A model generated the notes under the pieces. It worked only from the letters and a program-made list of their open reading frames with translations. It ran no database searches and had not been told where the DNA came from. DNA of 37,208 bases. Source: Planctomycetota bacterium. GTDB lineage: Bacteria; Planctomycetota; Phycisphaerae; UBA1845. Shown piece by piece: positions 7,630-34,550 of the stretch; positions within the stretch are counted from its first letter, which is position 1; the number at the start of each line of letters is the position of its first letter. The position numbers were made by a program, and so were the translations under genes. Location of the stretch: positions 1 through 37,208 of the forward strand of contig JAADIU010000184.1 in assembly GCA_013151185.1 (NCBI GenBank). The letters run 5' to 3'.

Positions 7630-7718
7630 CATCGGCCAGTGGGTGGCCCATCCCTTCCAGGGGTGGGGGAACAGATTGCGGCACTGTTCAGTCAGCGGCA
7701 CTGTTGAATCATTTGGAG
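7630..7718 (+). repeat. Intergenic hairpin plus GCGGCACTGTTC element, copy A, with 17-bp tail duplicated
   Basis: catcgg...CCATCCC-ttcca-GGGGTGG...gattGCGGCACTGTTCAGTCA|GCGGCACTGTTGAATCAtttgg; same layout as copy B at 9695-9761 on the minus strand. Confidence 0.5.
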
Positions 7719-7751: not shown

Positions 7752-8534
7752 CTAACCATCGCCTCCCACCAGCGCACAAAGTCTTGCGGCTTCCTGACGG
7801 TTCAATCGCGCCGTATCCTCCAACACCACGTCGAGCCGCTTCCCGTCCGCGGATCGGGCCACGGGTTCGAGCAAGACAACATCGGCTAAACGCTGCGACC
7901 GCAAGTCGAATCGCTCGGTCACGATCGAAAGGCACGTTGCGAAATCAACACCCTCCATCGCCACCGACAAGCGATTCATCGAGGCCACACACCCGTTTGA
8001 ATATACAAACGTAACTTCAAACGCAAGTCCAAGCTGACGGATCGCCTCCTCGGCCAAAGCGTCCACCAATTCGATGTCGCCGCTGGGCAGTTCCGCCTCC
8101 GGAAATGCAACGTTTTCCTGTCGATCAGCCACCCGAGCCGCCGCCAGAACCAAGGCCGCCGAATCCTGCTTTTGCAGCCAGATCGTCGTACCGTCGAGGT
8201 CCCAACCCACCAATCCAAACGCCCTTTCCGCCAGGAGTCTCGCCGTGTTAACATCGAGAGTCGTGGAAGTGCAGTACAACCGCGTCGCCGATCCTATCCG
8301 CTCGCGATCGACCTGCGATCCCATGACGAACGGTTGACCGAGCCGCCAGCGATCGATCCGCGATCTCAAGACGAACGGCTGACCGGTGGCCTGCGAAATG
8401 CGGGTCACCAATGCCGTACCGCTCAGCCCCTCTGCGGGCCAGGCAAGCTCCTGCACGGGCGTCGCGGATTCTGGTGCCTCTGCAAGAAGACTGGCCAGAA
8501 GAATCGACAGTGCTATGTGGATACACGAAGGCAT
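7752..8534 (-). CDS. Hypothetical secreted protein, possibly with STN/secretin-like N-terminal domains
   Basis: ORF to 8720; ATG at 8534 gives a signal-peptide-like start MPSCIHIALSILLASLLAEAPESATP. STN-like reading is weak inference from LDVNTARLLAERAFGLVGWDLDGTTIWLQKQ. Confidence 0.6.
   Translation of the reverse strand: MPSCIHIALSILLASLLAEAPESATPVQELAWPAEGLSGTALVTRISQATGQPFVLRSRIDRWRLGQPFVMGSQVDRERIGSATRLYCTSTTLDVNTARLLAERAFGLVGWDLDGTTIWLQKQDSAALVLAAARVADRQENVAFPEAELPSGDIELVDALAEEAIRQLGLAFEVTFVYSNGCVASMNRLSVAMEGVDFATCLSIVTERFDLRSQRLADVVLLEPVARSADGKRLDVVLEDTARLNRQEAARLCALVGGDG
8295..8384. repeat. 45-bp in-frame tandem duplication
   Basis: Encodes GQPFVLRSRIDRWRL|GQPFVMGSQVDRERI (minus strand). 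Confidence 0.85.
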
Positions 8535-18690: not shown

Positions 18691-18722
18691 CCTATCGCAG
18701 AAACGCCCTATCGTAGAAACGC
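18691..18722. repeat. 16-bp tandem duplication spanning a stop codon
   Basis: cctatcgcagaaacgc|cctatcgtagaaacgc; minus-strand TAG of the 18708-19214 gene lies in the second copy. Confidence 0.85.
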
Positions 18723-19214
18723 ACCGTGTGGAATGCGGCTTGTGAACCCGTCAATGGGCAATTCACAGCGCCCGACGACGACGGCATGGTATGGGCTAGC
18801 CGCGCGCGGATGACGTTGCGCATCCGGGTCCGGGTAGTGTTCCGAGACCTCCACCCGAAGATGCTCGCCGTCCCGCCAAACCCTGTCGATGTGAATGGAG
18901 CATTGTTCGCTCGATGCAGGCCCCATCGCTGCGAGCAGCACCATCTGACTTGAGAAATCTACGTCGAGATCGATCAAGGGGAACTGCGACAAGGTCGGAA
19001 AGTCGTAAATGACGATCCGCAGTGGTTTGGCAATCGTGGAACTATTGTTGGACTTTTGGCTATATACGGTGAATTCCGCGTCTTGCCCCATCCGCTCGAA
19101 CGCCGGCTGAGGGCGCTGTGATTCGGATTGCAGAGAGCATCCAATCAATGATACCAAACAAACCAGATGCAGAAGATTGCGTCGATGGGTGCGATGGGCG
19201 GGTACGCCGCGCAT
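18708..19214 (-). CDS. Putative lipoprotein (PrcB-like C-terminal region, tentative)
   Basis: Lipobox-like LVCLVSLIGCS; FSSQMVLLAAMGPASSEQCSIHIDRVWRDGEHLRVEVSEHYPDPDAQRHPRAASPYHAVVVGRCELP. Confidence 0.65.
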   Translation of the reverse strand: MRGVPAHRTHRRNLLHLVCLVSLIGCSLQSESQRPQPAFERMGQDAEFTVYSQKSNNSSTIAKPLRIVIYDFPTLSQFPLIDLDVDFSSQMVLLAAMGPASSEQCSIHIDRVWRDGEHLRVEVSEHYPDPDAQRHPRAASPYHAVVVGRCELPIDGFTSRIPHGAFLR

Positions 19215-19303
19215 TGTATTCTCCGGCGCAAACCGTCAAAATGCGGTTGCGGCAAGCGAGGCTGCATTTATAATCGCTTGGTTGGCAAGATGATAGGGTT
19301 TTT

Positions 19304-19331
19304 CGGGAACCTGTTGGCGGGAACCTGTTGG
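19304..19331. repeat. 14-bp exact tandem duplication
   Basis: cgggaacctgttgg|cgggaacctgttgg. Confidence 0.9.
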
Positions 19332-19386
19332 ATTGGGCGATACGAACCGGATCAAGGCAGACGGCTTGCGGAGCGATCTCTCTTAC

Positions 19387-19881
19387 ATGAGGCTCTTTTG
19401 CATGGGGCTCCTTTGTGTGGGGTTGCTTTGCATTGGGGTTACGGGCGGCTGCGCGGGGCGCGTTGAGGTTTTGACCCGGCAGCTCGAATCGGTTGATCCG
19501 GCAGAGCGCATTCGCGCGGTCCACGCTGTGGGGACGCAGCGCCTTGATGCGTTGCTTCCCGCGCTGGTCGATCGCTTGGATGATGTCGATGTAGCCGTCC
19601 GAATGTATGCGATTGTGGCCTTGGAAAAAATGACCGGAACACGATTGGGCTACAACTACGCCGGTGAAAGCAGACTGCGTCGGGCATCCGTTACCAAATG
19701 GCGGCGCTTTGTTGAAGATCGCGTTGTTGAAGATCGAGCTGCTAAAAATCGAATAATTGCGGACCCTGCTCTTGATGGCCGAGGCATTACAGCCAAGGCG
19801 TTGGTCGCGGGCGACGGCGCAACCGACGTTGAGAACGCAAACGTCAAAGCCGACAACAAAGAACCCAAACCCGACCGCTAA
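19387..19881 (+). CDS. HEAT-repeat-like putative lipoprotein
   Basis: MRLFCMGLLCVGLLCIGVTGGCAGRVEVLTRQLESVDPAERIRAVHAVGTQRLDALLPALVDRLDDVDVAVRMYAIVALEKMTG. ORF starts at 19333; ATG at 19387 gives the lipoprotein-like signal. Confidence 0.68.
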   Translation: MRLFCMGLLCVGLLCIGVTGGCAGRVEVLTRQLESVDPAERIRAVHAVGTQRLDALLPALVDRLDDVDVAVRMYAIVALEKMTGTRLGYNYAGESRLRRASVTKWRRFVEDRVVEDRAAKNRIIADPALDGRGITAKALVAGDGATDVENANVKADNKEPKPDR

Positions 19882-19941
19882 ACTCGGGCGATACGGAAGA
19901 CTGAATCCCATTCACGGAGTCCGCTTTGAGGCGGGTTGGCC

Positions 19942-20283
19942 ATGGACAATGGTGTGATCAAAGCGTTGAACAAAGGTGACGGCCACGTTGTCTTTTGCCT
20001 CGCGGGCGAACTGACGATCCACAACGCGCCGGGCTTCCACAAATCCGTGCTTGACATGATGACAGAGGCGAATGGAGACTGGGTTTTTGACCTTCAGGAA
20101 GTCAGCTACATCGACTCAGCCGGTGTCGGCACGCTGGTCGATGTCTTTCGCCGCACGAAGAAAAGCGGTGTCCGCATGTCGCTGGTCGGTATGAATCGCC
20201 AAGTCCGCAGCGTTTTTGAAATCACAAAGCTGGACAAATTCTTTCGCATTTTTGAGTCCGTTCAAGAGGCGCTCGACTCGTGA
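19942..20283 (+). CDS. STAS-domain protein (anti-sigma antagonist / MlaB-like)
   Basis: VFCLAGELTIHNAPGFHKSVLDMM...WVFDLQEVSYIDSAGVGTLVDVFRRTKKSGVRMSLVGMNRQVRSVFEITKLDKFFRIF; 4-nt overlap with the downstream permease. Confidence 0.9.
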   Translation: MDNGVIKALNKGDGHVVFCLAGELTIHNAPGFHKSVLDMMTEANGDWVFDLQEVSYIDSAGVGTLVDVFRRTKKSGVRMSLVGMNRQVRSVFEITKLDKFFRIFESVQEALDS

Positions 20284-21149
20284 CCGGTTCTTCGTCGGCT
20301 TCTTCTCCGAAGTTCAAACCGTCGAGAATTCGCCGGTCCATCGAAAGCATCGGTACCCTGGGCGACCAGAGTTTGCGCTCTGTCGGCGGATTTGTGGGCA
20401 GCCTTGGGGCGATGGCATACCTCTTGGTCGACAGCATCCGCTGGGCGTTCAAAGGTATCTTTAGCCGCAAACTGAAATTCGGCTGGCCTGCACTGTTTGA
20501 GCAGATGGTGCGGGTGGGCGTCAAGAGCATTGCCATCGTCGTGCTTGTCCAGGCGTTCATCGGATCGATCCTTGCACTGCAACTCGCCCCAACGCTAGCA
20601 AGCTATGGCCAACTCGAAAAAATCGCCGACGTGGTTGCGATTGCGATCGTGCGCGAGTTGGGACCGCTGATCACAGCGATCGTCCTGAGCGGATATGCCG
20701 GCGCATCCATCGCGGCTGAAATCGGTTCGATGGTTGAAGCTGAAGAAATCAAAGCCCTTCGCGCGCACGCGTTGAATCCGATTCGTTTTCTGATCGTCCC
20801 ACGCTTCATCGCCACGACCGTGATGATTGTCGGGTTGGCGGTGATCGCCGACACCGTGGGGATTGCCGGCGGGATGTTCACCTCGTGGGCGGCACTGGGG
20901 ATTTCGCCCGAGGCGTATTTGGATTCAACCCGAGCCGCCATTGGGGTCAGAGATTTCTTGACCGGTTTGAGCAAGGCTTGCATCTTCGGCATGTTGATTT
21001 CGATGATCGCTTGTTACGAAGGCCTGTCGGTATCGGGCGGAGCGGTGGGCGTCGGTAAAGCGACGACCGCAACCGTCGTGAAATCGATCGTCGCGGTGAT
21101 CGGCATGGACGCTGTGTTTACAACGATTTTCTACGTTTTTGGACTGTAG
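20280..21149 (+). CDS. mlaE: MlaE-family ABC transporter permease
   Basis: GVKSIAIVVLVQAFIGSILALQLAPTLASYG...VVAIAIVRELGPLITAIVLSGYAGASIAAEIGSMVEAEEIKALRAHALNPIRFLIVPRFIA. GTG start. Confidence 0.93.
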   Translation: MTGSSSASSPKFKPSRIRRSIESIGTLGDQSLRSVGGFVGSLGAMAYLLVDSIRWAFKGIFSRKLKFGWPALFEQMVRVGVKSIAIVVLVQAFIGSILALQLAPTLASYGQLEKIADVVAIAIVRELGPLITAIVLSGYAGASIAAEIGSMVEAEEIKALRAHALNPIRFLIVPRFIATTVMIVGLAVIADTVGIAGGMFTSWAALGISPEAYLDSTRAAIGVRDFLTGLSKACIFGMLISMIACYEGLSVSGGAVGVGKATTATVVKSIVAVIGMDAVFTTIFYVFGL

Positions 21150-21159
21150 GGTTTCTGGA

Positions 21160-22053
21160 ATGAACGACGCGGGCGCAGGTCGGGATGTTGTGATCTCTCT
21201 GCGGAACGTGCGCAAATCGTTTGAGGACCATGAGGGCAACGACCACATCGTTCTGGATTCGGTGACGTTCGACATCTATCGCGGCGAAACGCTCGTGGTC
21301 ATGGGCGGTAGCGGATGCGGTAAAAGTACGCTTCTCAACTGCCTGATCGGCGAATACGAAACAAGTGCGGGTGCCATTTTATTTCGGACGCGGGACATGG
21401 ATGCGCTCGCCGACATCGCCGAACTGAGCGAAGATGCGTTCAATTCCATTCGCAAGCGCTTTGGCATCCTGTTTCAAAGCGGGGCGCTGTTTAATTCGCT
21501 CACACTCGCCGAAAACGTCGCCCTGCCTCTGGAAGAACACTCCTACGTCGACCCTTCCATTATCGATATTGTGGTGACGCTAAAACTTCAGCAGGTTAAG
21601 ATGCTCGCCCACCGCGACAAAATGCCTTCACAATTGTCGGGCGGACAAAAAAAACGCGCGGGTTTGGCGCGGGCGACGGCGCTCGATCCGGAGATTCTCT
21701 TTTATGACGAACCGTCTGCCGGTCTCGACCCTGTCACGTCAACCGCGATTGATGAACTCATGATGGATCTGTCGCAAAAACTCCGCGTCACGAGCGTGGT
21801 GGTCACACATGAGATGGACTCGGCTTTTCGAATTGCGGATCGAATGGTCATGCTGGACAAGGGGCGGGTGTTAAAGATCGCCCGTCGCGGAGAATTTGAA
21901 TTGTTACGCGATGCGGACCCGGCTGGGCTCGTCGATTCGGATGATCGTTTGATGAACCAGTTCCTCAACGGGCACGGGGAAGGACCACTGACCGATGCGG
22001 AAGGCCTGAGTGAATTTGAGAAAATGATCAACACGACATCAAGTGGGTACTGA
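21160..22053 (+). CDS. mlaF: MlaF-like ABC transporter ATP-binding protein
   Basis: VVMGGSGCGKSTLLNCL (Walker A), QLSGGQKKRAGLARATALDPEILFYDEPSAGLDPVTS. Confidence 0.93.
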   Translation: MNDAGAGRDVVISLRNVRKSFEDHEGNDHIVLDSVTFDIYRGETLVVMGGSGCGKSTLLNCLIGEYETSAGAILFRTRDMDALADIAELSEDAFNSIRKRFGILFQSGALFNSLTLAENVALPLEEHSYVDPSIIDIVVTLKLQQVKMLAHRDKMPSQLSGGQKKRAGLARATALDPEILFYDEPSAGLDPVTSTAIDELMMDLSQKLRVTSVVVTHEMDSAFRIADRMVMLDKGRVLKIARRGEFELLRDADPAGLVDSDDRLMNQFLNGHGEGPLTDAEGLSEFEKMINTTSSGY

Positions 22054-22071
22054 ATGAGCGGGTACTGAATC
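22042..22071. repeat. 15-bp tandem duplication spanning the mlaF stop codon
   Basis: agtgggtactgaatg|agcgggtactgaatc; TAC TGA present in both copies, same frame. Confidence 0.9.
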
Positions 22072-22111
22072 ACCAAAGCTTCTTTAATCTCAGAGTAACA
22101 GGTCGAAAAAT

Positions 22112-23374
22112 ATGGCGAGAAAAAGAAACACGTTTGCACTGGGCCTCGCGCTTCTGGTGATGTTCTCCGTGTTCGTGGGGTTCCTTTTGTTCATCGGGGC
22201 AAAGGGTGTGTTTCCCCCGAAGACGCACGAGTTTGTCGCACGATTTGGACTGGGCGCCGCGATGCCCGAAATCGTCCCCGGATCGCGGGTCAATTGTTTT
22301 GGGCAGGCGGTTGGCAAGGTGATCGAAACAAAGTTTGTCGAAGCGCCTGACCCGACCGGCAGATCGTCGGAAGACCTCCCGTATCTCGAAGTGCGAGCCA
22401 CGGCGCTGACCGTGCTAAACCTCCGCTCCGACTGCAAGATCGTTTCCACCGGACCGCCGCTCGGTGGCAAGGGCATCATCGAAATCGTGGCTTGCGGTAT
22501 CAGCGACCAACCCTTGACCGACAAGACGGTGCTGTACGGCTCTGTGACCGGGTTTCAGGAAGTGCTGGCAACCGTCACGCGCGAGTTGGACGAGAAGAAC
22601 TCGAAGGGCCTGCTGCGAATGCTCAAGCGGGAGTTTGATGCGGGCGATAAGAATTCGTTGCTGGCTCGCGTTCGCGCATCTTCGATGGATATCAACCGGA
22701 TCACCAAAAACCTGGCGCTGGAGATGTCGCGCGACAAAGAGGGACACCTGCTCGCCAAACTCCATGAAAGCATGGACAAGGTGAACCTCGGCCTTGCGGA
22801 GTTGGTCGCCCTTCTGGAAGAAACCCGCCCACCGCTGGGCCGAACCATCGCCTCGGCTGAGAGCGCCATGTCGAGGATCGATCGCGAAGTGGTGACACGC
22901 CTCTCCGAAGAATTCGACCCTGAGCACAAAGGCGGCTTACTTGCCCATGTGCATACTGCGTTTGAAAAGCTGAATGCCTCGCTCGATGATCTCAACGTCA
23001 TTACCACCAGCGGGAAAGGGGTGGTCGTGCTGAACAGTGCCCGCATCGATGAACTCGTTCAAAACGCATCCGAGGCGGGGATGCTGCTTCGCGGGGGCAT
23101 CAAGGATTTGACATTGCATCCGTGGAAACTGCTCTCCAAGCCCACGCCATCGGAAATGCGGGAGCTGAATACTTTCAACGTAGCCCGCGAATTTGCCGAG
23201 GCTTCGGCGCATCTCGACGATTCGACGTCGCGGTTGAAAGCGATGATCGATATGCACGGATCTTCGATTGACACCAACGATGTCCAGCTTCAAAACATCC
23301 AAGCCGACCTGGCTGACAGCGTCGCAAAGTATCGTGAAGCAGAGCAGGCGCTCTGGAAGCTACTCAACAAATAA
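22112..23374 (+). CDS. MlaD/MCE-domain protein with long helical C-terminal region
   Basis: N-terminal TM then FVARFGLGAAMPEIVPGSRVNCFGQAVGKVIETKFVE...CKIVSTGPPLGGKGIIEI; then ~270 aa of likely helical sequence. Confidence 0.88.
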   Translation: MARKRNTFALGLALLVMFSVFVGFLLFIGAKGVFPPKTHEFVARFGLGAAMPEIVPGSRVNCFGQAVGKVIETKFVEAPDPTGRSSEDLPYLEVRATALTVLNLRSDCKIVSTGPPLGGKGIIEIVACGISDQPLTDKTVLYGSVTGFQEVLATVTRELDEKNSKGLLRMLKREFDAGDKNSLLARVRASSMDINRITKNLALEMSRDKEGHLLAKLHESMDKVNLGLAELVALLEETRPPLGRTIASAESAMSRIDREVVTRLSEEFDPEHKGGLLAHVHTAFEKLNASLDDLNVITTSGKGVVVLNSARIDELVQNASEAGMLLRGGIKDLTLHPWKLLSKPTPSEMRELNTFNVAREFAEASAHLDDSTSRLKAMIDMHGSSIDTNDVQLQNIQADLADSVAKYREAEQALWKLLNK

Positions 23375-23428
23375 CCTACGAATCGGCGGGCACATCGCAC
23401 GCTGCGCCGAGAAACCTTATGGAATCGC

Positions 23429-24574
23429 ATGGCCAAGAAAAAAACAGAGTTTGACGTAATCGTCGCGGGCGCGGGACCAGCCGGTGCCACGGTGGCTGCA
23501 ATATTGGCCAAAGAAGGTTGCTCCGTTGCGCTGCTTGATCGTGAGACGTTTCCGCGTCCCAAGTCCTGCGTGGGATGGGTCAATCCGCGTACCGAAGATC
23601 TGTTGAAAGGTCTCGGGGTCGCGACCAAAAAATTGCTCGCTCGCCCCATCGGTGATGTGATTTTTCACAATGCCAATCTCTCGCAGTATTCGGTGCCAAA
23701 GATGACCGCCTGCCCTGGATATTTTGTCGATCGTGGCGCGTTCGACGAACAACTTGTTCGGGCGGCTAAGAAGGCGGGGGCGCATCTCCTCGAAGAACAC
23801 GACGTATCAGACCTGAATCCTTTGGAGTCCGGTGTCGAGGTGGTTACGTCGAACGGAGAGAGGCTGACGTGCAAGCTGCTGGTGTTGGCTGTTGGCGCTA
23901 CGACGAAGCTGCGGGCGCGCGTCGGGCTGAAGCGATCGGAATCGCGCGGTGTGCGCTGGACCGCGATGGTTGAACAGGTCATCGACACAAAACCCAAAGG
24001 CGCAAGACCCAAAGGCGCTGCGGCGATATCGAGGATGGATATCATTCTTGGTGTGACGCCGGAAAACGGTCTCGCGGTTCTCGCGCGGCAGCCGGATCGC
24101 ATCGCGCTGTTTGTCAATTCGCCGGGGGAGCGGAACTTCATTCGTGATCGATTGGTGGAACTAGCAGCCGCTCTGCGGGCCAGGGAATTTGTTCCCGAGG
24201 GGTTTGCCGTTGACCCGAGTTCGATTGTGTGCGCAGAGTCGTGTCACGACCCAGCGCTTGAGTTGGACTCGCACGTTGGAAAGAACACGCTCACCATCGG
24301 TGATGCGGGCGGATTTGTCGCAGCGGTCAGCCAGGAGGGAATTTATCCTTCGATGTGGTCGGCGCAAATCGCGGCAGACGTGATCCGGGACGCACTGGCA
24401 GGCGATCAATCCCAAGACGCACTAATGACCTTCGACACCCGTTGGCGATTGGCGATGGGCGACTACCTGCGGCCACCCAATACGGATCTGCAATTGCTGG
24501 CTCCGCTGATTTTTTCAAATCAACCGATGACAGACCGAATGGCCAAAGCATTTTTCTTTGGTGAAAACATCTAG
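23429..24574 (+). CDS. Geranylgeranyl reductase-family FAD-dependent oxidoreductase
   Basis: FDVIVAGAGPAGATVAAILAKEGCSVALLDRETFPRPKSCVGWV; GKNTLTIGDAGGFVAAVSQEGIYPSMWSAQIAADVI. Confidence 0.88.
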   Translation: MAKKKTEFDVIVAGAGPAGATVAAILAKEGCSVALLDRETFPRPKSCVGWVNPRTEDLLKGLGVATKKLLARPIGDVIFHNANLSQYSVPKMTACPGYFVDRGAFDEQLVRAAKKAGAHLLEEHDVSDLNPLESGVEVVTSNGERLTCKLLVLAVGATTKLRARVGLKRSESRGVRWTAMVEQVIDTKPKGARPKGAAAISRMDIILGVTPENGLAVLARQPDRIALFVNSPGERNFIRDRLVELAAALRAREFVPEGFAVDPSSIVCAESCHDPALELDSHVGKNTLTIGDAGGFVAAVSQEGIYPSMWSAQIAADVIRDALAGDQSQDALMTFDTRWRLAMGDYLRPPNTDLQLLAPLIFSNQPMTDRMAKAFFFGENI

Positions 24575-24602
24575 GAAGCAATCGCTCGCAGACCGCAAAG
24601 AA

Positions 24603-25085
24603 CTACAACCGGTGAAATGTCACCTCGTCGCGCGCCAAGTCGACCGTCGCGACGGTGTATTCCCGGGCCCGCTGAAGCGCACCGGGATTCACGATCCGAC
24701 ATCGCCCAACGCGTTCATCCCGAGCGATGTGGGTGTGTCCGTGAAAGATGTAGTCAACGGTCGGATTGTTGACCGCCGTGCGAAATGACGGTTCGTGTCC
24801 ATGAAAGACCTGGATCGATTTGCTACCAAGTTCAAGGCGCAGCGGAATCGACTTCGGTGCGTTCAAGCCGACCGTCGCAAGGTACGCCAGCGTCGCTTGA
24901 TCGGGGACGTCGGTGTTGCCCCAAACGAAACGGATATCGCGACCCACCCATTCGTCGAATACCGGAATGCCGCCAACGTCACCACAGTGAATGAGCGCGG
25001 ATGCTTCGTTGCGATCAAAAATCTCCAGCGCAAGTTTCACGCGCTCGACCGATCCGTGGCTGTCGGACATGACGCCGATTTTCAT
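24603..25085 (-). CDS. YfcE/MJ0936-type metallophosphoesterase
   Basis: MKIGVMSDSHGSVERV, IHCGDVG, VWGNTD, FHGHEPS, FHGHTHIARDERVGRCRIVNPGAL. Confidence 0.92.
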   Translation of the reverse strand: MKIGVMSDSHGSVERVKLALEIFDRNEASALIHCGDVGGIPVFDEWVGRDIRFVWGNTDVPDQATLAYLATVGLNAPKSIPLRLELGSKSIQVFHGHEPSFRTAVNNPTVDYIFHGHTHIARDERVGRCRIVNPGALQRAREYTVATVDLARDEVTFHRL

Positions 25086-25720
25086 GGCGCGTCAGTCTCC
25101 GTGCGAATCGACGCGACGACACGGTTCCACACGGCTTGCTCCCGACCGGTCATTCGCCCACCGCCCACAAGGTCGATTGCGTAGGCTGTCGTTTCGGCAC
25201 CCTGCCGATCGACCGCAGCGAGGACCCTGACGTACAAACCAAGCCGATCGCGCAACACATCCACCGGACGATCCACCTTTGCAAAGCTGGCTGGCCAATC
25301 GCCAAAATTCGCCGTGCCAAATTGAACACGACCAAGAATCGAGATGTCGAGGAGGGCGGAATATTGGGCCAGAACATCCCTGCCAACGTCTTCCGCTGTT
25401 TGCATATTTGTGATTTGCATCCTGCGAAATCGCACAGGAGACACATGGCCGGATTCCGAATCATCGTTCGGACTAAAAACGAAGACCTCCGCACCGCGCA
25501 GATCCTCAACCCGGACACCGTCACCCCAGCCGGCAGGCACTCGAAACGAGATACGCCAACCGGGTAGGCGAATTTCCTCGCCCATTGGCATCTGGGTGCG
25601 TTGCGAAATGAAGTAGCCAGCCAGCGCAGAGACGGCTAGGAACGAGCCCATGCCGAAGAGTGCGCCTCTGCGTTTCAGGGTTGAGTGTCGAATGGCAAGA
25701 TCCGCGTGCATCGTTCGCAT
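25082..25720 (-). CDS. Hypothetical protein, N-terminal TM anchor
   Basis: LFGMGSFLAVSALAGYFISQRTQ then soluble region; 4-nt overlap with the downstream phosphoesterase start. Confidence 0.72.
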   Translation of the reverse strand: MRTMHADLAIRHSTLKRRGALFGMGSFLAVSALAGYFISQRTQMPMGEEIRLPGWRISFRVPAGWGDGVRVEDLRGAEVFVFSPNDDSESGHVSPVRFRRMQITNMQTAEDVGRDVLAQYSALLDISILGRVQFGTANFGDWPASFAKVDRPVDVLRDRLGLYVRVLAAVDRQGAETTAYAIDLVGGGRMTGREQAVWNRVVASIRTETDAP

Positions 25721-25892
25721 CCTACGGTTTGAAATCGTGAATCACAACGGTTGACCGATCCCACGCAGACGCCTACATTCAACGCGCGAGCGGGCTTGTT
25801 GGCGCGTGAGCAAATTCGTTTGGCATGTGTGGTGGCTGGGCTGCGTCGGCTTGGGAACCCAACACATGCGAAACCGGCAGGCGTAGACGCCT

Positions 25893-26768
25893 ATGGACGA
25901 GTTCAAACGCTTTTTCTTGCGTGGATTGGCGGCGGTCCTGCCGACCCTGCTGACGATTGCCATCTTCCTGTGGGCGTATCGGCTCGTGGACACCTACCTG
26001 GGACAGCACATCACGCGCGGAATGCTCGGGGTCATGTCTCTCGTGGGGGAACCCTCTGCTGTGAACGCCGAGGAGGACGCGCTGGAATACGGTTCACCGA
26101 TCGACCGATGGATCGAAACGGGCCCTTTGGCTGGCCTGCGTGAGACGGCTGAGTATAACATCATTTCCAGCAATGCTTTAGACAGCCAAGACCCGGTGAT
26201 CGCCCAGCGTGCCGAGCACGCACGCCTCAATGCCTTGTGGAGTATCGCATTTAAGAAGTACAAACTGGGCTTGGTCGGTTTTTTGATTGCGATCATTGTC
26301 GTATACTTCGTCGGGCTTTTCCTGGCGAGCCTCATTGGCCGCACGACGCTCAGGCTTGTCGAGCGCACGGTGAGCCGGATGCCACTGGTGGGTGCGATTT
26401 ATCCAAATATCAAGCAGGTCACTGATTTCTTATTCAGCGAGAAGAAGCTGGAATTTTCGGGTGTGGTGGCGGTTCCCTACCCGCGACAGGGAATCTGGTC
26501 GGTCGGGCTGCTGACGGGTCGCCCCATGAAGGCGATTGCGGCTGCGGCCAAAGATGAATTGGTCACGGTGTTTATTCCGAGTTCGCCCGCACCGGTGACA
26601 GGGTATACGATTACAGTGCCGCGGAGCGATCTTTTGGAACTCGACATCTCCATCGATGAGGCGTTGCGGTTCATCATCAGTGCGGGAGTGGTCAAACCCG
26701 ATACGCAGCTTTTGTTGGATCCCGTCGAAGAAGGTCAAAACGAAATCGCGAAGAGCGAGAGCCAATAA
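25893..26768 (+). CDS. DUF502-family membrane protein
   Basis: MDEFKRFFLRGLAAVLPTLLTIAIFLWAYRLVDTYLG...RMPLVGAIYPNIKQVTDFLFSEKKLEFSGVVAVPYPRQGIWSVGLLTG. Confidence 0.9.
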   Translation: MDEFKRFFLRGLAAVLPTLLTIAIFLWAYRLVDTYLGQHITRGMLGVMSLVGEPSAVNAEEDALEYGSPIDRWIETGPLAGLRETAEYNIISSNALDSQDPVIAQRAEHARLNALWSIAFKKYKLGLVGFLIAIIVVYFVGLFLASLIGRTTLRLVERTVSRMPLVGAIYPNIKQVTDFLFSEKKLEFSGVVAVPYPRQGIWSVGLLTGRPMKAIAAAAKDELVTVFIPSSPAPVTGYTITVPRSDLLELDISIDEALRFIISAGVVKPDTQLLLDPVEEGQNEIAKSESQ

Positions 26769-26783
26769 ACAGGAGACCGTGCA

Positions 26784-27125
26784 GTGGAATCAGTTGAAAT
26801 CTCGGTAACGGGCCGACACGTTGAGGTGTCAAACAGGGTCCGAACCTACGCGGAAGAAAAGGCACAAAAACTCCCACGGTTTTTTGACCGTGTTCAATCT
26901 ATTGATATCGTGGTCGACAAAGAAAAAGAGCTTTCGTCGGTCGAAATGATTGTGCGTGCGGCGGGTGCTCAAACGTTCGTCGCCAAGGAGGTCGGACCGG
27001 ACGCGCATTCATGCATCGATTTGTTGGTCGATAAGCTCGAAAGACAGTTGACCAAACACAAGGAAAAACTCCGCAGTCACAGGCATCCGGGACATTCCGC
27101 CGAACCCTTGCCGGAAAGCGAGTAG
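26784..27125 (+). CDS. hpf: Short-form ribosome hibernation-promoting factor
   Basis: MESVEISVTGRHVEVSNRVRTYAEEKAQKLPRFFDRVQSIDIVVDKEKELSSVEMIVRAAG...DAHSCIDLLVDKLERQLTKHKEKLRSH; GTG start. Confidence 0.92.
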   Translation: MESVEISVTGRHVEVSNRVRTYAEEKAQKLPRFFDRVQSIDIVVDKEKELSSVEMIVRAAGAQTFVAKEVGPDAHSCIDLLVDKLERQLTKHKEKLRSHRHPGHSAEPLPESE

Positions 27126-27138
27126 GTTCGTAAAGATC

Positions 27139-27288
27139 GTGGTTTGGTCGGCGATTTATTGCTGGGACCAGAGTGTTGGTTTGAGACCAAGCGATGCCAA
27201 AAGAGAAGCGCTTATGAGAAATATCCAGATTTTGGAGCATGTTGGTTCTTTGGAGCCGCGACACTTCAAAGATGAGAGGATCGCATGA
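27139..27288 (+). CDS. Candidate 49-aa small ORF (GTG start) ending in a 4-nt ATGA overlap with ptsN
   Basis: MVWSAIYCWDQSVGLRPSDAKREALMRNIQILEHVGSLEPRHFKDERIA*; below the ORF-track length. Internal ATG at 27214 gives 24 aa. Codon choice (AGA, AT-ending) is atypical for the window. Confidence 0.25.
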   Translation: MVWSAIYCWDQSVGLRPSDAKREALMRNIQILEHVGSLEPRHFKDERIA

Positions 27289-27761
27289 AACTCGATGATT
27301 TTTTTGAAATTGACGCCTGCATTCCTGAGTTGCAGTCGACCGATCGCAATGGCGTGATTCGCGAACTGATTGGCGCACTGGCGAAAACAGGCGCCATCGA
27401 TGAATCGGACACGGAAGCGGCTGCCAAGGCTTGCATTGCGCGAGAGAACAACGGTAGCACCGGTTTCGGTAAAGGTGTGGCTGTGCCTCACGTCAGCAAG
27501 AATCAGGTGGTCAAACGAATGGCCGCGGCTGTCGGTCGTTCGACGGCGGGGATCGATTTTGCGGCATTGGATCGGGCCCCGGTTTACATCGTGGTCATGG
27601 TGCTGAGTCCACCAGACGACCCGGATGTTCATCTTGCGGCGATGGAGCGAATTTTTCGCCACCTTCAGCGAGACAACTTCCGCCGATTCTTGCGACAGGC
27701 AGAGACGAAAGACGCCATCCGCGATTTGATTCTGGAGGCGGACGAATATCAGGAAGGTTAG
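27285..27761 (+). CDS. ptsN: PTS EIIA domain protein (PtsN/EIIA-Ntr-like)
   Basis: LQSTDRNGVIRELIGALAKTG...RENNGSTGFGKGVAVPHVSKNQV (active His)...LSPPDDPDVHLAAMERIFRHL. Confidence 0.9.
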   Translation: MKLDDFFEIDACIPELQSTDRNGVIRELIGALAKTGAIDESDTEAAAKACIARENNGSTGFGKGVAVPHVSKNQVVKRMAAAVGRSTAGIDFAALDRAPVYIVVMVLSPPDDPDVHLAAMERIFRHLQRDNFRRFLRQAETKDAIRDLILEADEYQEG

Positions 27762-27796
27762 ATCGCGGTTTGTTGTGACGAAGGCGTTGGCACGAT

Positions 27797-28120
27797 GTGG
27801 GCGAAACGACGGCGCCAAGTGGAAGGCAAATCGCGGTGGCTGCGATCAATGGACAAGTAACCATCGAAATCGTCAATCCGCAGGGGTTGCACGCTCGCCC
27901 GGTGATGAAATTTGTCGATCTCGCCGCCACCTTTCAATCCGGCATCACGGTCGACAAGGGCGACGGAACCGAACAGGTCGATGGCAAGAGCCCGATGCAC
28001 ATGATGCTCCTTGCCGCCCCCAAAGGCACATCGCTGCGAATCATGGCCACCGGTGACGACTCCGAACTCGCCCTCAAGGCTCTCAGTGAACTGATTCAAA
28101 ACGGATTCGGTGAAATGTGA
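27797..28120 (+). CDS. ptsH: Phosphocarrier protein HPr
   Basis: VTIEIVNPQGLHARPVMKFVDLAATFQSGITVDKGDGTEQVDGKSPMHMMLLAAPKGTSLRIMATGDDSELALKAL; start uncertain (GTG at 27836 also possible). Confidence 0.92.
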   Translation: MGETTAPSGRQIAVAAINGQVTIEIVNPQGLHARPVMKFVDLAATFQSGITVDKGDGTEQVDGKSPMHMMLLAAPKGTSLRIMATGDDSELALKALSELIQNGFGEM

Positions 28121-28242
28121 CGCGCTCGCGGGCGGCGTGTCCTGGGTACGAATCGACCAGCCTTTTGCCTGAATGACTCATTTCAGTTCCAATGCGATGC
28201 GTTGCGTTTTGGGCCCCCCAGAAAATGCAGGCATAGACCACC

Positions 28243-29985
28243 ATGGAGATTCTTCGAGGCATCGCGGTAGCGCCCGGCATTGCAATCGCTGAGGCGGTTG
28301 TTCTGGATGCCGAGGACTATCGCATTCCCGAGCGAACGGTTGCCGCAGAGAACCTCGAACGCCAGCGTGAAATCCTTCAGCACGCCTTCACCGCCTCGAC
28401 CGACGAACTCACGCGCCAACGCAGCCAATGGTCAAACGAGCTGGGTCAGGAAGCGGCAGACATCTTCAATTGGCATCGCGGTGTCCTGCAAACGCCACAG
28501 CTTCGTGAGCAAATCGGTCAACTCATCGACGAGAGCCACTTTTCCGCAGCCTACGCCACAAGTTTGGTCATGCGCAAGTTTCAGCGGCGATTCCAAAGAA
28601 TGCGTGATCCGCTTCTTGCGGAACGGGTCCGGGATGTTCGCGACATCGAACGGCGCCTGCTGCGGCATATCCTTGGTGAGACGAGGGAGGATCTTGCGCA
28701 CCTGACGAGCCCCGCCGTGCTGGTGACGCACGATTTAACGCCTTCAATTGCTGCAACGCTCTCATCCACAGAGGTTGTGGGTGTGGCGATGGATGTTGGT
28801 GGCGCGGCATCGCACACATCGATTTTGCTTCGGGCGATGGGACTGCCATCCGTGGTCGGTGTCGCGGACTTGTCATCGCATGTCAGCGGTGGCGATTTGA
28901 TCATCGTGGACGGAGTCAACGATCTTGTGATCGTCGCCCCGGACGAGCCAACGCTCAAGCAGTACCGCGATCAGCAGCAGCGCTACGTCAAAATCCGTGA
29001 AGAACTTGGCGACCTGCGCGACTTGCCTGCAAAAACACTCGACGGCGAGACGTTTCAATTGCTCGCCAATGTGGAGTTCCCGTCCGAAGTCGCCTCCTGT
29101 ATCGACGAAGGAAGCGACGGCATTGGTCTATACCGCACCGAGTTTCTGTATTTGCAGGGAAGCACCGACCCAACGGAAGAAGAGCAATTCGAGGCGTACC
29201 GCGAAGTCATCGGCGGGATGAGTGGCAAACCGGTGACGATCCGTACGTTCGACCTCGGTGCAGACAAGTACACGCAGGGCAAGTCGGCAGAGCGGGAGCC
29301 CAACCCGATGCTGGGGTTGCGTTCGATTCGGTACAGTTTGCAGCAACTGGATATGTTCAAGATCCAGTTGCGGGCGGTCTTGCGGGCAGCCACCGAGGGC
29401 GAGGTCCGGTTGATGTTTCCGCTGATCATCAGCCTGATGGAATTTCGTCAGGCAAAAATGGTGCTCCATGACGCGATGGAAGACCTCGAAGACGAGGGAA
29501 TTCCGTTCAACCGGGATATCGAAATCGGGATCATGGTCGAGACCCCTGCCGCGGCGATCCAATGTCGCGATTTTGTCCGCGAAGTCGGCTTTGTCAGCAT
29601 TGGCACGAACGATTTGGTACAGTACATCCTAGCCGTGGATCGCGGGAACGAGAAGGTCTCCCAGTATTACTCCTCAGCCCATCCCGCCGTGCTGCGGACA
29701 CTGCACGATGTCATTAGAACTTGCCGACGGGCGGGTGTTTCGTGTAGCCTGTGTGGTGAGATGGCCGGTCAGCCGTTATATACTATGCTGCTGGCGGGTC
29801 TGGGGCTCAGGCAGTTCTCGATGGGCCCGCACGACATCCCCGAGGTGAAAAAACTTCTGCGGATGTGTAAGATCAAACAAATGGAGCGCGTTGCGAGGCG
29901 GGCACTTTCTTTTGAAACGGAACGGCAGGTGGTCAACTACCTGCGAGCCCAGACGCGAAAGCTCCTACCGGACGATCCCATTTAG
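28243..29985 (+). CDS. ptsI: PTS enzyme I (phosphoenolpyruvate-protein phosphotransferase)
   Basis: 580 aa; GGAASHTSILLRAMGLPSVVGV, GIGLYRTEFLYL, RTFDLGADKY, EIGIMVETPAAAI, FVSIGTNDLVQYILAVDRGNEKV, SLCGEMAGQPL. Confidence 0.96.
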   Translation: MEILRGIAVAPGIAIAEAVVLDAEDYRIPERTVAAENLERQREILQHAFTASTDELTRQRSQWSNELGQEAADIFNWHRGVLQTPQLREQIGQLIDESHFSAAYATSLVMRKFQRRFQRMRDPLLAERVRDVRDIERRLLRHILGETREDLAHLTSPAVLVTHDLTPSIAATLSSTEVVGVAMDVGGAASHTSILLRAMGLPSVVGVADLSSHVSGGDLIIVDGVNDLVIVAPDEPTLKQYRDQQQRYVKIREELGDLRDLPAKTLDGETFQLLANVEFPSEVASCIDEGSDGIGLYRTEFLYLQGSTDPTEEEQFEAYREVIGGMSGKPVTIRTFDLGADKYTQGKSAEREPNPMLGLRSIRYSLQQLDMFKIQLRAVLRAATEGEVRLMFPLIISLMEFRQAKMVLHDAMEDLEDEGIPFNRDIEIGIMVETPAAAIQCRDFVREVGFVSIGTNDLVQYILAVDRGNEKVSQYYSSAHPAVLRTLHDVIRTCRRAGVSCSLCGEMAGQPLYTMLLAGLGLRQFSMGPHDIPEVKKLLRMCKIKQMERVARRALSFETERQVVNYLRAQTRKLLPDDPI

Positions 29986-30020
29986 GCGCGGCCCATTTAG
30001 GCGCGGCCCATTTAGGCGCG
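29977..30020. repeat. 15-bp triplication spanning the ptsI stop codon, ending in palindrome ttaggcgcgcctaa
   Basis: cccatttaggcgcgg|cccatttaggcgcgg|cccatttaggcgcg(c); three in-frame TAG codons. Confidence 0.95.
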
Positions 30021-30147
30021 CCTAACCAAGCGCAGCATAGTCGCAAGCGCGACGGGGATAGTTTGGTCAACGATAATTGTAAAGGCGGTCTGAGCGCGTG
30101 CTTGGGACCGACAGAAAGAAATTCAGTTGTAGGCTGTGTGGGATTGA

Positions 30148-30855
30148 TTGTTGGCAGGAGAAACCCAAGGCGCGACCCGCTTTCGATATTTGATTGACTT
30201 CTCTGTGGATGGCGACATCCGGTATCTGGCCCACAACGACATGGTGCGCATGTTTGGAAAGGCATGTGCCCGGGCGGAACTACCGGTGAGCTTCACGCAG
30301 GGTTTCAATCCACGCGCCCGTTTGACTTTGCCCTTCCCAAGACCGGTTGGCCAACGCTCTGATGCGGAACGTTTGCAGCTCGATTTGACCCGCCAGCTGG
30401 ATGCTGACGAATTGGTCGCCGGGCTCAACAAGCAGATGCCGGATGGCATAAGAACGTTTGCTGCAAGTCCAATCGATCTCTCGCACACATGCCGGCCTTG
30501 CCGCGTGACGTACCGGGTTGACATACCCGGGTTGGACACGTTGTTTTCCGACGGTCCACCACTCGTGCAACGCATCGAATCATTTCTGTCGTCTCCCGAG
30601 TTTGAAATTTCGCGCGTGCGTCATCGTGACAGTCGCGTCACGGTGGTGGACATCAGGCCCTTTGTCGACACGCTGACCGCTGACAAATGCAGCGTCAGCA
30701 TGTCGATCTTGGTCACTCAATCTGATGGAGGCTTAGCCACACCCCGAGAGGTGTGTCGGGCCCTGGGCATGGATGCCGACGAGATCAACTACCGGGTCCG
30801 TCGCGTGAATATTCAATGGCAAACAAAACCGAAAAAACAGAAGGCGTCACCGTAG
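30148..30855 (+). CDS. TIGR03936/DUF2344 family protein
   Basis: RFRYLIDFSVDGDIRYLAHNDMVRMFGKACARAELPVSFTQGFNPRARLTLPFPRPVGQRSDAE; neighbour of an RNase E/G gene as commonly seen. Confidence 0.85.
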   Translation: MLAGETQGATRFRYLIDFSVDGDIRYLAHNDMVRMFGKACARAELPVSFTQGFNPRARLTLPFPRPVGQRSDAERLQLDLTRQLDADELVAGLNKQMPDGIRTFAASPIDLSHTCRPCRVTYRVDIPGLDTLFSDGPPLVQRIESFLSSPEFEISRVRHRDSRVTVVDIRPFVDTLTADKCSVSMSILVTQSDGGLATPREVCRALGMDADEINYRVRRVNIQWQTKPKKQKASP

Positions 30856-33689
30856 CGGTCAAAACGAAGACCTCCACCGCAAGGGGAACGGCCACCAAAC
30901 GAAAAAAGAAGAAGGTCGCCTCTCCCCGCGCCAAGATCGCTACCGAGAAGAGCGCTGCCGGGAAGATCGCTTCCGAGGATACCAAGAAAATTTCCCGGAA
31001 GCGCACCGCAAGCCGACGAAAGAAACCGACGGCTACGAAAGACGCGGCGACCTCAAAAGACGCTGCTCCTTCAAAGGACGTCGTTCCTGCGAAGGATGCA
31101 GTTTCTTCGCCCCCTGCTTCCTCTGAAGTGGGCAAGGTCTCCAGCGCTCCCAAGAACGACAAACCGAAAGAACCGAGCACGGCGCGTCCCACTTTGAAAG
31201 TGGCTCCTGCGTCCGATTCGCCGGGGGCCGCCACGACAAAGAAGACATTCCAACGATCCCGATCGCGTAAGAAATCGGCGGCTGGCATGTCGCATTCGGA
31301 CGGTGGTGAAACGGTCCGGGCTGACGCTGCTTCGCCCGAAAGCAAACCGCGTCGCTCACGCACAGCCTCCGCACGCGGTGGCAGCAACCGTGGCAAGTCC
31401 GCCGAGGGTTCGGGGGACGGGCAGGAGACGAGTCACGCTAAGAAAGCGGAACCGTTTGGCGCGGGAATAATCTCCAAAGCAAGCACAGCCACCCCGACCG
31501 GCGACTCTGGCACCCCAACGAGCGACTCCGGCGAAGTGCCTTCAACCCAGGCGACCAAGAAAACGGCAGCGCAGTCTTCTCGACGCCGAGGGCGCAGGGG
31601 CGCGGGCACCTCGAATCGAAAGAAAGTTTCGCGATCCGAGCAAGCATCCGAATCCGCACGAGAACCGTCGGCATCATCGACGCCCGAGAAGACGGAGGCT
31701 CCTGCCGTTGAAGCCCGTGCCGCCGAGGCCCTGCCCCTTGCCGCGCAGCCTGCGGTAAACGTCGGTGAGGAAGAGTCCGCCGCACCCGTTGTTCTGAAGA
31801 AGCGCCCCGTCCGTCGTGCGAGGCGCTCGAGATCGCGTGGGAAGGCCGGGGATAAGATCGCGGAGCCCAACGACACTGCAACCGCCAATGAAGAAGTAGC
31901 CGGCGAAAAAGAAAGTGAATCGACCAGTAAGGTCTCTCAAGAAGATGACGGCTCTACAGAAACATCCGACCGGAGCGAAACAGAGACCACGTCTCGCAGT
32001 GCGTCAACCGGTGGTCGCAGACGCCGTCGAGGAAAATCAACCGCGAGAAAGAGCACGGTTGAACAACCCGTTGCGGAAGCCGCCCCCTCGGAAGAATCTT
32101 CTCAGACTCAAGACATGGTCGTCATCGACGATGAGAGCGACACCGACACCGTCACCGCGGCTGGGCGGGAGATGATCATCAATTCAACCGCCGGTGCGGA
32201 GTGTCGAATTGCGATCCTGCACGAGGGACGGCTTGAGGAAATCTACATCGAGCGTCAAAGCTCCGCGTCGCACGTTGGCAATATTTACAAGGGACGCATC
32301 ACGAACGTCGAGCCAAGCATCCAAGCCGCTTTCGTCGATTTTGGCTTGGCTAAGAACGGGTTTCTGCATATCTCGGATGTCCTCCCAAAATATTTCAGCA
32401 ACCGCAAGGACGCGACCGAAAACGTTGGCAAGAAGGTACCTCGACGCGATCGCCCCCCGATTCAAAAATGCTTTCGGCGGGGAGATCAGGTCATCGTTCA
32501 GGTTGCGAAGGAAGGCGTGGGTACGAAGGGCCCCACACTCACAACGTACCTTTCGATTCCGGGACGATTTGTGGTGATGATGCCTGGGATGAGCAAGCTG
32601 GGCGTGTCGCGGCGGATCGAAGACGATGCCGACCGCAAAGCGATGCGCGATTTGCTCGGGCAACTGACCCTGCCCGATGGAATGGGATTCATCCTTCGGA
32701 CGGCTGGCCTTAATCGCAATAAGCGAGACCTGCAAAGCGACTTGAACTATCTGAACCGCCTTTGGAAGACGGTTCAGAAACGCATCGATACGCAAAAAGC
32801 CCCGTGCGAGTTGTACCAGGAATCAGACCTGGTCATCCGCACCATTCGCGACGTGTACTCCAGCGATTTCAAACGCATCGTCGTTGACGACCTCGACGTT
32901 GCCGCCAAAGCGAAGGACTTTCTGCGCATCGCCATGCCGCGCACACAGGGAGACGTTGTCGCGTTTCAACGAAACGAACCCATTTTCCACCATTACGGGA
33001 TCGAGCAGGAACTTCAAAGGATCTACTCCCGTCACGTCCCGTTGCAATCGGGCGGGTCCATCGTGATCGATTCAACAGAAGCCATGGTGGCCATCGATGT
33101 GAACAGTGGAAAATTCCGCGACCTCAACGACGCAGAAGAAACGGCGTACCGAATCAATCTGGAAGCCGCATCCGAAATCGCCCGGCAGCTGCGCCTTCGC
33201 GACCTGGGCGGGTTGGTGGTGTGCGACTTCATCGACATGCGCCTTGATCGACACAAGCGTGCGGTGGAGAAAGCCCTTCGCGACGCACTGAAATCACACA
33301 AGGAGCGCGCCCGTATTCTGCGGATGAGCAAATTCGGACTGATCGAGATGACCCGGCAGCGACAAGGACCGTCGATCAAGAGAAGCGTCTTCGTGGACTG
33401 CAAGCACTGCGATGGAAGTGGATTGGTGAAGACAGCCGAGTCGATGTCGCTGGAGGTCCTGCGCGTTCTGCAACTGCTCACCCACCGCAAGGATGTGTCT
33501 CAAGTCACCGTCGAAGTCGCACCGGATGTGTCTGCGTTGGTGCTCAATGAGCAACGGGCGCTGCTGCATCGCCTCGAAACAAAGACGCAAAAGTCGATCG
33601 CGATCGTACCAATGCCCAGCTACACCAACGACGAAGTCTCATACAAGTGCGTCGACACTCGGGGGATGCCGCTTCGGATCGAAGTGTGA
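30816..33689 (+). CDS. rne: Ribonuclease E/G with long low-complexity N-terminal extension
   Basis: ATG at 30816. Catalytic part: REMIINSTAGAECRIAILHEGRLEEIYIERQSSASHVGNIYKGRITNVEPSIQAAFVDFGLAKNGFLH, GGSIVIDSTEAMVAIDVNSGKF, LGGLVVCDFIDM, CKHCDGSG zinc-link. Confidence 0.95.
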   Translation: MANKTEKTEGVTVAVKTKTSTARGTATKRKKKKVASPRAKIATEKSAAGKIASEDTKKISRKRTASRRKKPTATKDAATSKDAAPSKDVVPAKDAVSSPPASSEVGKVSSAPKNDKPKEPSTARPTLKVAPASDSPGAATTKKTFQRSRSRKKSAAGMSHSDGGETVRADAASPESKPRRSRTASARGGSNRGKSAEGSGDGQETSHAKKAEPFGAGIISKASTATPTGDSGTPTSDSGEVPSTQATKKTAAQSSRRRGRRGAGTSNRKKVSRSEQASESAREPSASSTPEKTEAPAVEARAAEALPLAAQPAVNVGEEESAAPVVLKKRPVRRARRSRSRGKAGDKIAEPNDTATANEEVAGEKESESTSKVSQEDDGSTETSDRSETETTSRSASTGGRRRRRGKSTARKSTVEQPVAEAAPSEESSQTQDMVVIDDESDTDTVTAAGREMIINSTAGAECRIAILHEGRLEEIYIERQSSASHVGNIYKGRITNVEPSIQAAFVDFGLAKNGFLHISDVLPKYFSNRKDATENVGKKVPRRDRPPIQKCFRRGDQVIVQVAKEGVGTKGPTLTTYLSIPGRFVVMMPGMSKLGVSRRIEDDADRKAMRDLLGQLTLPDGMGFILRTAGLNRNKRDLQSDLNYLNRLWKTVQKRIDTQKAPCELYQESDLVIRTIRDVYSSDFKRIVVDDLDVAAKAKDFLRIAMPRTQGDVVAFQRNEPIFHHYGIEQELQRIYSRHVPLQSGGSIVIDSTEAMVAIDVNSGKFRDLNDAEETAYRINLEAASEIARQLRLRDLGGLVVCDFIDMRLDRHKRAVEKALRDALKSHKERARILRMSKFGLIEMTRQRQGPSIKRSVFVDCKHCDGSGLVKTAESMSLEVLRVLQLLTHRKDVSQVTVEVAPDVSALVLNEQRALLHRLETKTQKSIAIVPMPSYTNDEVSYKCVDTRGMPLRIEV

Positions 33690-33728
33690 CGCGCGCGAAT
33701 CGATCACAAACGCGCCGAGTCGGAAGTG

Positions 33729-34550
33729 CTATGCTTCGTCCTCTGCCGGAGGGACCTCCGCTGGTGGGCCCTCCGTTAGTGCGTATTGCTGGCTGGGTGG
33801 CGGGTCAGCCGGATGGGCGAACAGGTCTGCATGAACCGGACCCGCGACGATTTCTCGCACCCTGTCGCGAAGAGCGGGTACATCCTCACGTCTGACCTGA
33901 TCCATCTCGATGGCCTCATGAACATGGACCGTGATGCGTGACGGGCGAAGCATCCAATCACCCTTGCGCTTCATTTGAAATGACCCGACGAGGCTGACCG
34001 GAACGATCGGGTGTTTGAATTTTTGCGCCATCACGAAAATACCGTCGCTGAATTCTCCGACCTTTCCTGTAAGCGTTCGGGTTCCCTCCGGCAAAACCAT
34101 CAGGTTGATTCCTCGGTTAAGGGTTTCCTTGGTCAATCTAAAAACCTTGCGTACGTTGGCGGTGCTCTTTTCTTCAGCCACCGGAACGTTGCCGTAGATT
34201 TTCATAAACCAGCCGTACATCGGAATCTTGAAGTGCGTCTCCAACTCCATCCCGCACGAGAAACTGTTTGTCGCTGCGTAAATGACAAACGGATCGAAGA
34301 TGTTGACATGGTTGCTCACAAAAATGTATGTACGCGTCCTGTCAAAATCGGGCGGATACACGACGCGGTAGTGTACGCCCAAGGCGTGGATCAACACGCG
34401 CGAGAAAAACCGCACGCACTTGTCGGTACGCGGTGCCCCGACGATGAGCGCAAGGACAATCAAGAAACCGATGCTGCAAAAGAAAACCGGTGTCGCAATC
34501 ATCCACAGGACGACGCTGCGCAGGGTTAGATACATCTCTTTCATACGCAC
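33729..34550 (-). CDS. 1-acyl-sn-glycerol-3-phosphate acyltransferase (PlsC family)
   Basis: TYIFVSNHVNIFDPFVIYAATN (NHxxxxD), VPVAEEKSTANVRKVFRL, NLMVLPEGTRTLTG, HPIVPVSLVGS. Confidence 0.93.
   Translation of the reverse strand: MRMKEMYLTLRSVVLWMIATPVFFCSIGFLIVLALIVGAPRTDKCVRFFSRVLIHALGVHYRVVYPPDFDRTRTYIFVSNHVNIFDPFVIYAATNSFSCGMELETHFKIPMYGWFMKIYGNVPVAEEKSTANVRKVFRLTKETLNRGINLMVLPEGTRTLTGKVGEFSDGIFVMAQKFKHPIVPVSLVGSFQMKRKGDWMLRPSRITVHVHEAIEMDQVRREDVPALRDRVREIVAGPVHADLFAHPADPPPSQQYALTEGPPAEVPPAEDEA

Follow-up and report, generated by a model that had tools for sequence, protein, structure and literature searches.

Short tandem duplications with a preferred unit length in a Phycisphaerae genome

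Tandem duplications in the window

We analyzed a 37,208-nucleotide stretch of DNA (the window), which is one contig (C13) of a Phycisphaerae MAG, a 3.71 Mb draft in 357 contigs that is 90% complete. The gene content is mostly ordinary housekeeping (DnaA, EF-G, MlaE and its ATPase, PtsI, RNase E/G and others), and the nearest matches of the PtsI-like protein are Phycisphaerae metagenome bins. The original prediction listed eleven places in this DNA with tandem repeats, most with units near 15 bp. We re-read all eleven and scored each by lag (match +1, mismatch -2), with 60 dinucleotide shuffles of the window as the reference for chance; eight of them, at 18691, 19304, 19387, 19708, 22042, 23992, 29977 and 8295, were clearly beyond chance. 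The extents of three were corrected: the array at 19387 spans 19378-19430 (3.5 copies), that at 19708 spans 19705-19752, and that at 23992 spans 23988-24018 (15/16 matches). TRF reported most of the listed sites, plus an array at 30933-30977.

The noncoding duplication at 19304-19331 consists of two exact copies (14/14) of the 14-bp unit CGGGAACCTGTTGG with no microhomology, and a 16-bp unit, CCTATCGCAGAAACGC, occurs twice at 18691-18722 (15/16). A small lipoprotein-like gene (19333-19881) carries 15-bp duplications in both its signal peptide and its middle part; on the plus strand, the lipoprotein-like signal peptide (LSYMRLFCMGLLCVGLLC) contains 3.5 diverged copies of a 15-bp unit at 19378-19430, and an in-frame 15-bp unit (RFVEDRVVEDRAAKNR) is present in 3.2 diverged copies at 19705-19752. 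Also on the plus strand, the FAD-monooxygenase-like gene at 23429-24574 contains an in-frame 15-bp duplication (KPKGA RPKGA) at 23988-24018. In the RNase E/G gene, the N-terminal region is of low complexity and harbors 2.9 copies of an in-frame 15-bp unit at 30933-30975 (plus strand); three diverged copies of an in-frame 18-bp unit lie in the same region at 31041-31094 (plus strand; lag score 11, 0.02 expected). That site and the 17-bp duplication at 7678-7711 (two copies, 15/17; lag score 11, 0.03 expected by chance) are probably not due to chance. The three strongly diverged 15-bp copies at 33740-33784 are weak when taken alone (lag score 9, 0.2 expected per shuffled window), and the 45-bp duplication at 8295-8384 (two copies, 36/45) is not a chance match and lies outside the size class.

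Of the several repeats proposed to copy stop codons, two do so. At 22042-22071 a 15-bp duplication (AGTGGGTACTGAATG/AGCGGGTACTGAATC, 13/15) has doubled the TGA that ends the ABC ATPase gene (21139-22053), and at 29977-30020 the 2.9 exact copies (29/29) of the 15-bp unit CCCATTTAGGCGCGG repeat the TAG stop found at the 3' terminus of the PtsI-like gene (28243-29985). The first stop is still used at both sites, and the extra copies are all downstream of that stop. At its right-hand end, the 29977 array joins with the bases that follow to form a perfect 14-bp palindrome, TTAGGCGCGCCTAA, at 30012-30025.

Unit length across the genome and its relatives

We sampled the window and 53 further stretches, 687 kb in total or about one fifth of the 3.71 Mb genome, with genes called by a simple codon-usage caller and with codon- or dinucleotide-preserving shuffles as the genome-level reference. 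The sample contained 74 tandem duplications over threshold, compared to 0-2 in the shuffles, and 63 of the 74 had units of 13-19 bp, with a mode of 15-16 bp when mismatches were allowed. Exact duplications of at least 11 bp had units of 13 bp (two), 14 bp (four), 15 bp (five), 16 bp (one), 17 bp (one) and 19 bp (one); no other exact unit between 11 and 60 bp was found in the 687 kb, and the shuffles gave about 0. The TRF check that had been suggested yielded 149 arrays in the 687 kb, window included, with period 15 in 47, period 16 in 22, period 18 in 16 and period 14 in 11. With the window left out, 56 duplications of 13-19 bp were recovered in 650 kb (86 per Mb); the preference for units near 15 bp extends beyond the window, which represents its genome fairly as regards tandem duplications. 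As predicted, the repeats occur in unrelated coding and noncoding sequence, with no sequence common to the units.

In noncoding DNA, the density of near-exact duplications per Mb per bp of unit length rose from 7 at 10-12 bp to 25 at 13-14 bp and 79 at 15-16 bp, then fell to 25 at 17-18 bp, 12 at 19-21 bp and 0 at 22-30 bp. Because the score threshold detects short units less well, we added a test that counts exact 8-base matches at each lag from 9 to 60 and is equally sensitive at all lags. With the window excluded, lags 14-18 in noncoding DNA held 72 repeats where 16 were expected (p about 1e-24), and lags 9-13 held 23 where 16 were expected, from a baseline of 3.2 per lag, with little signal above lag 21. 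Plain nucleotide autocorrelation was dropped, as it was dominated by a 3-periodicity that probably reflects missed coding sequence. The prediction hinged on an excess at 14-16 bp over shuffled controls, and we found a strong excess at 14-18 bp, also relative to other bacteria. We are highly confident that the length-biased duplication process is real.

We compared the source genome with four genomes of the same genus (G001-G004), with other genera and families, and with a convenience sample of controls made up of a Bacillota-dominated mix, some Omnitrophota and E. coli (250 kb). Duplications of 13-19 bp numbered 92 per Mb in the source genome, 58 in G002 and 25 in G003; five other genera of the family gave 19 per Mb when pooled, and four other families of the order gave a pooled 40 per Mb that comes mostly from G038, a Ku carrier. 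The Bacillota-dominated controls had 12 per Mb, and E. coli had 0 in 250 kb. By the 8-mer test, the excess at 14-18 bp was significant in the genus (49 vs 15 expected), in other genera (33 vs 12) and in other families (34 vs 11), marginal in E. coli (9 vs 4, p=0.03), and absent from the Bacillota-dominated set (37 vs 35). The proposed lineage specificity must be relaxed: the excess is strongest in the source genome, and a weaker one, with somewhat different modes, is also found in the genus, the other genera and the other families, so that the duplication habit is best called a Phycisphaerae trait, strongest in the source genome. Units of 13-16 and 17-21 bp were split 49/18 in the source genome and 16/21 in its same-genus relatives (p=0.003), the relatives leaning towards the longer class.

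Two further observations concern genomes outside the genus. In the Ku-positive G038 (L229-L233), from another family of the order, the rate of tandem duplications was high (17 in 100 kb) and their lengths varied more widely (10-39 bp), so that it might serve as a Ku-dependent contrast. In pooled outgroup noncoding DNA (L020-L081, L244-L248), 8-mer matches peaked at lag 21 (32, compared to about 9 at neighbouring lags), which could reflect a spacing of some two helical turns, or coding repeats that went unrecognized.

Derived copies, junctions and selection

The derived state of the copies rests on window sites that can be aligned, the genus being too diverged for nucleotide alignment at most noncoding sites elsewhere. 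At 19304, the second copy is derived: exactly 14 bp are missing from three same-genus genomes in an otherwise well aligned stretch. The duplications at 22042 and 23988 also look derived from the sequence comparison, the same-genus relatives carrying one copy of the stop-codon-containing sequence at 22042, and the five-residue second copy at 23988 being missing from the orthologous proteins of G001 and G002. The signal-peptide region with the 19378-19430 array exceeds its counterpart in relatives by about 45 bp, and the 30933 array is not present in the G001 and G002 orthologues. At 29977, G003 carries a diverged duplication at a spacing of about 17 bp and two other same-genus genomes have a single copy, which suggests an older case in which the three perfect 15-bp copies of the source genome reflect later turnover. 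This array, partly common to G003, is not a peptide repeat. Ancient conserved peptide repeats would have copies common to orthologues; those at 23988 and 30933 are missing in relatives, and the derived insertions at 19304, 22042 and 23988 likewise run counter to such an origin. Together, the derived copies and the lineage-biased length excess point to an ongoing mutational process, neither chance nor ancient peptide repeats.

An array made by slippage between pre-existing short repeats runs past two units by as many bases as the homology is long. Among exact two-copy arrays of the source genome, 8 of 12 had zero extra matching bases (about 56% are expected to do so if homology is irrelevant), and the 47 recent arrays of the genus had an extra-length mode of 0, with 3-bp extras somewhat above expectation. 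Extras of 1-3 bp were commoner in the G002 and G003 samples than in the source genome. The flanks matched the unit at 31% compared to a background of 25%, leaving room for imperfect-homology slippage, which may be a minor component. We found no junction motif (no position survived correction for 40 tests), no dyad symmetry at junctions (dyad complementarity 0.228), and no hairpin or structure enrichment or G+C bias at the duplications. The lack of required microhomology, motif, dyad symmetry or hairpin argues against classical slippage, and in place of its broad, decaying unit-length spectrum we observed the peak at 14-18 bp. Spaced direct repeats of 13-17 bp were mostly coding repeats; none encloses a REP palindrome, and otherwise there was no excess flanking inserted DNA.

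Selection has filtered the duplications in coding DNA. In the 687 kb, 24 of 25 fully coding units were multiples of 3 and kept the reading frame, a pattern that an assembly artefact would not yield; the duplications are real mutations. More than half are noncoding, and the rate peaks at the lowest constraint. The copies diverge mainly by transitions. Copy number reaches 2.7 or more in 20 of 63 arrays, growth of the kind seen in slippage-type arrays. The process is best read as continuing and mostly neutral, placing copies of arbitrary 14-18 bp stretches right beside the originals. The coding repeats with a 153-bp period in one large gene (L156, 13027-13900) are unrelated to the short duplications.

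Possible origins of the duplications

We propose, with a probability of roughly 0.4, that the 14-18 bp copies originate from opposed nicks, fill-in and a homology-free join. Two nicks on opposite strands, about 1.5 helical turns apart, would allow the nicked ends to open; filling in both 3' ends would leave each end bearing the identical 14-18 bp, and joining without homology by a Ku-independent route would give a perfect tandem copy. Slippage could later expand arrays to three or more copies. The narrow length might be set by a two-handed nicking complex, or by duplex stability if nicks close together come apart and are resected, and those farther apart stay paired and are sealed. The fixed length and homology-free junctions resemble those of eukaryotic duplications made by filling in and joining staggered breaks, but searches of the source genome and the four same-genus genomes found no Ku, ATP-dependent ligase or PrimPol, making a Ku-independent join our best guess and leaving the joining step with no named enzyme in this genus. 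A broader version, in which a Ku-independent Phycisphaerae process with a ruler of about 1.5 turns makes perfect 14-18 bp copies genome-wide, the ruler length differing between species, is put forward still more tentatively.

The main rival is replication misalignment with a built-in ruler, whereby the nascent strand slips back about 1.5 turns, a distance fixed by the footprint of a polymerase or clamp, and 14-18 bases are copied again, with little or imperfect homology tolerated. The frequency of arrays with at least 2.7 copies, as slippage expansion gives, the weak similarity of flanks to unit, and the end-joining genes not found in five genomes of the genus are all in its favor; a paired primer end would be needed, yet most exact junctions have zero microhomology, and neither hairpin nor structure enrichment was found. 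We consider it possible, if somewhat unlikely, as compared to nicking and fill-in. Stability of two-copy repeats generally falls with longer homology, so an apparent peak could arise if births occurred at all lengths, long ones being lost by recombination and short ones escaping detection. Such a retention bias is improbable given the equal-sensitivity 8-mer test, with its slight rise at lags 9-13 and large one at 14-18, and given controls of Bacillota-dominated composition that lack the peak.

The fixed length and missing microhomology would also suit footprints of target-site duplication, left by a transposase or Cas1-like integrase making 14-16 bp staggered cuts with the element absent or excised. 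We regard this as quite unlikely, as neither a target motif nor dyad symmetry was found, 13-17 bp direct repeats show no excess around inserted DNA outside coding repeats, REP palindromes are not associated, and neither Cas1 nor reverse transcriptase was found in the 90%-complete source genome. Selection for peptide or regulatory repeats could be read into coding cases in repetitive low-complexity regions such as the RNase E/G N-terminus, and is very unlikely for a set that is more than half noncoding and unrelated in content, has its highest rate at the lowest constraint, and has copies that drift apart, mostly by transitions. Chance, detection bias or assembly artefact deserves mention in that the window was picked for its repetitive look and the genome is a draft MAG; it hardly merits belief when the result replicates without the window, shuffles yield 0-2, the same excess appears in independently assembled relatives, and in-frame filtering and diverged copies cannot arise from assembly joins.

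Small tandem duplications in mammals come from fill-in of staggered breaks and end joining, and depend on Ku80/NHEJ (PMC8355091, PMC5730883); comparable small-duplication work in rice is cited in PMC7971508. The cases described here resemble such eukaryotic duplications in being perfect in-place copies of unrelated sequence that need no microhomology, and in being frequent small insertions. Perfect tandem insertions relative to an ancestral single copy, as expected of NHEJ-type events, were found at 19304 (three same-genus genomes) and 23988. They differ from the mammalian process in that Ku, and hence Ku-dependent joining, was not found in the five genomes of the genus, nor were LigD-type ligase or PrimPol, and in a length confined to about 14-18 bp. 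Arrays reach three or more copies and homogenise, as in replication slippage or minisatellite expansion; slippage, however, needs pre-existing short repeats, which most recent two-copy cases here do not have, and the duplications have a preferred length. A staggered cut sets the fixed length of transposon and casposon target-site duplications, but here no element lies between the copies. Haloquadratum walsbyi has direct repeats of 10-19 bp at inter-strain indels through repeat-mediated deletion (PMC3119063); the repeats are similarly short, although there DNA is deleted between repeats and here repeats are born. In the literature searched, which was covered in part, we found no description of a fixed-length duplication process in bacteria.

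A tandem repeat must first be born before it can slip, and little is known about how bacteria come by that first copy. A bacterial lineage that generates short duplications of nearly constant length in large numbers, with no required microhomology and apparently free of Ku, offers a natural system for studying the mechanism. Small insertions in such genomes do not follow a decaying-length background, which affects indel models, the way signal peptides and low-complexity regions of proteins grow, and intergenic evolution.

The source genome has two Y1 transposase (RAYT-like) matches (G000:C73:6653-6988 and C321:6171-6434); Y1 transposase was rejected as candidate machinery because it occurs in nearly all genomes tested and so explains nothing. 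REP palindromes lay within 150 bp of 2 of 38 duplications, compared to a background of 4.1%. The REP-like palindrome GTAGGGTCCGCTGTGCGGACC often occurs as two inverted copies spaced by about 48 bp (REPIN-like), as at L112 11798, L118 8739, L121 4485, L123 6732 and other places. It occurs 0 times in 380 kb of G002, twice in 400 kb of G003 and 47 times in the 687 kb of the source genome.
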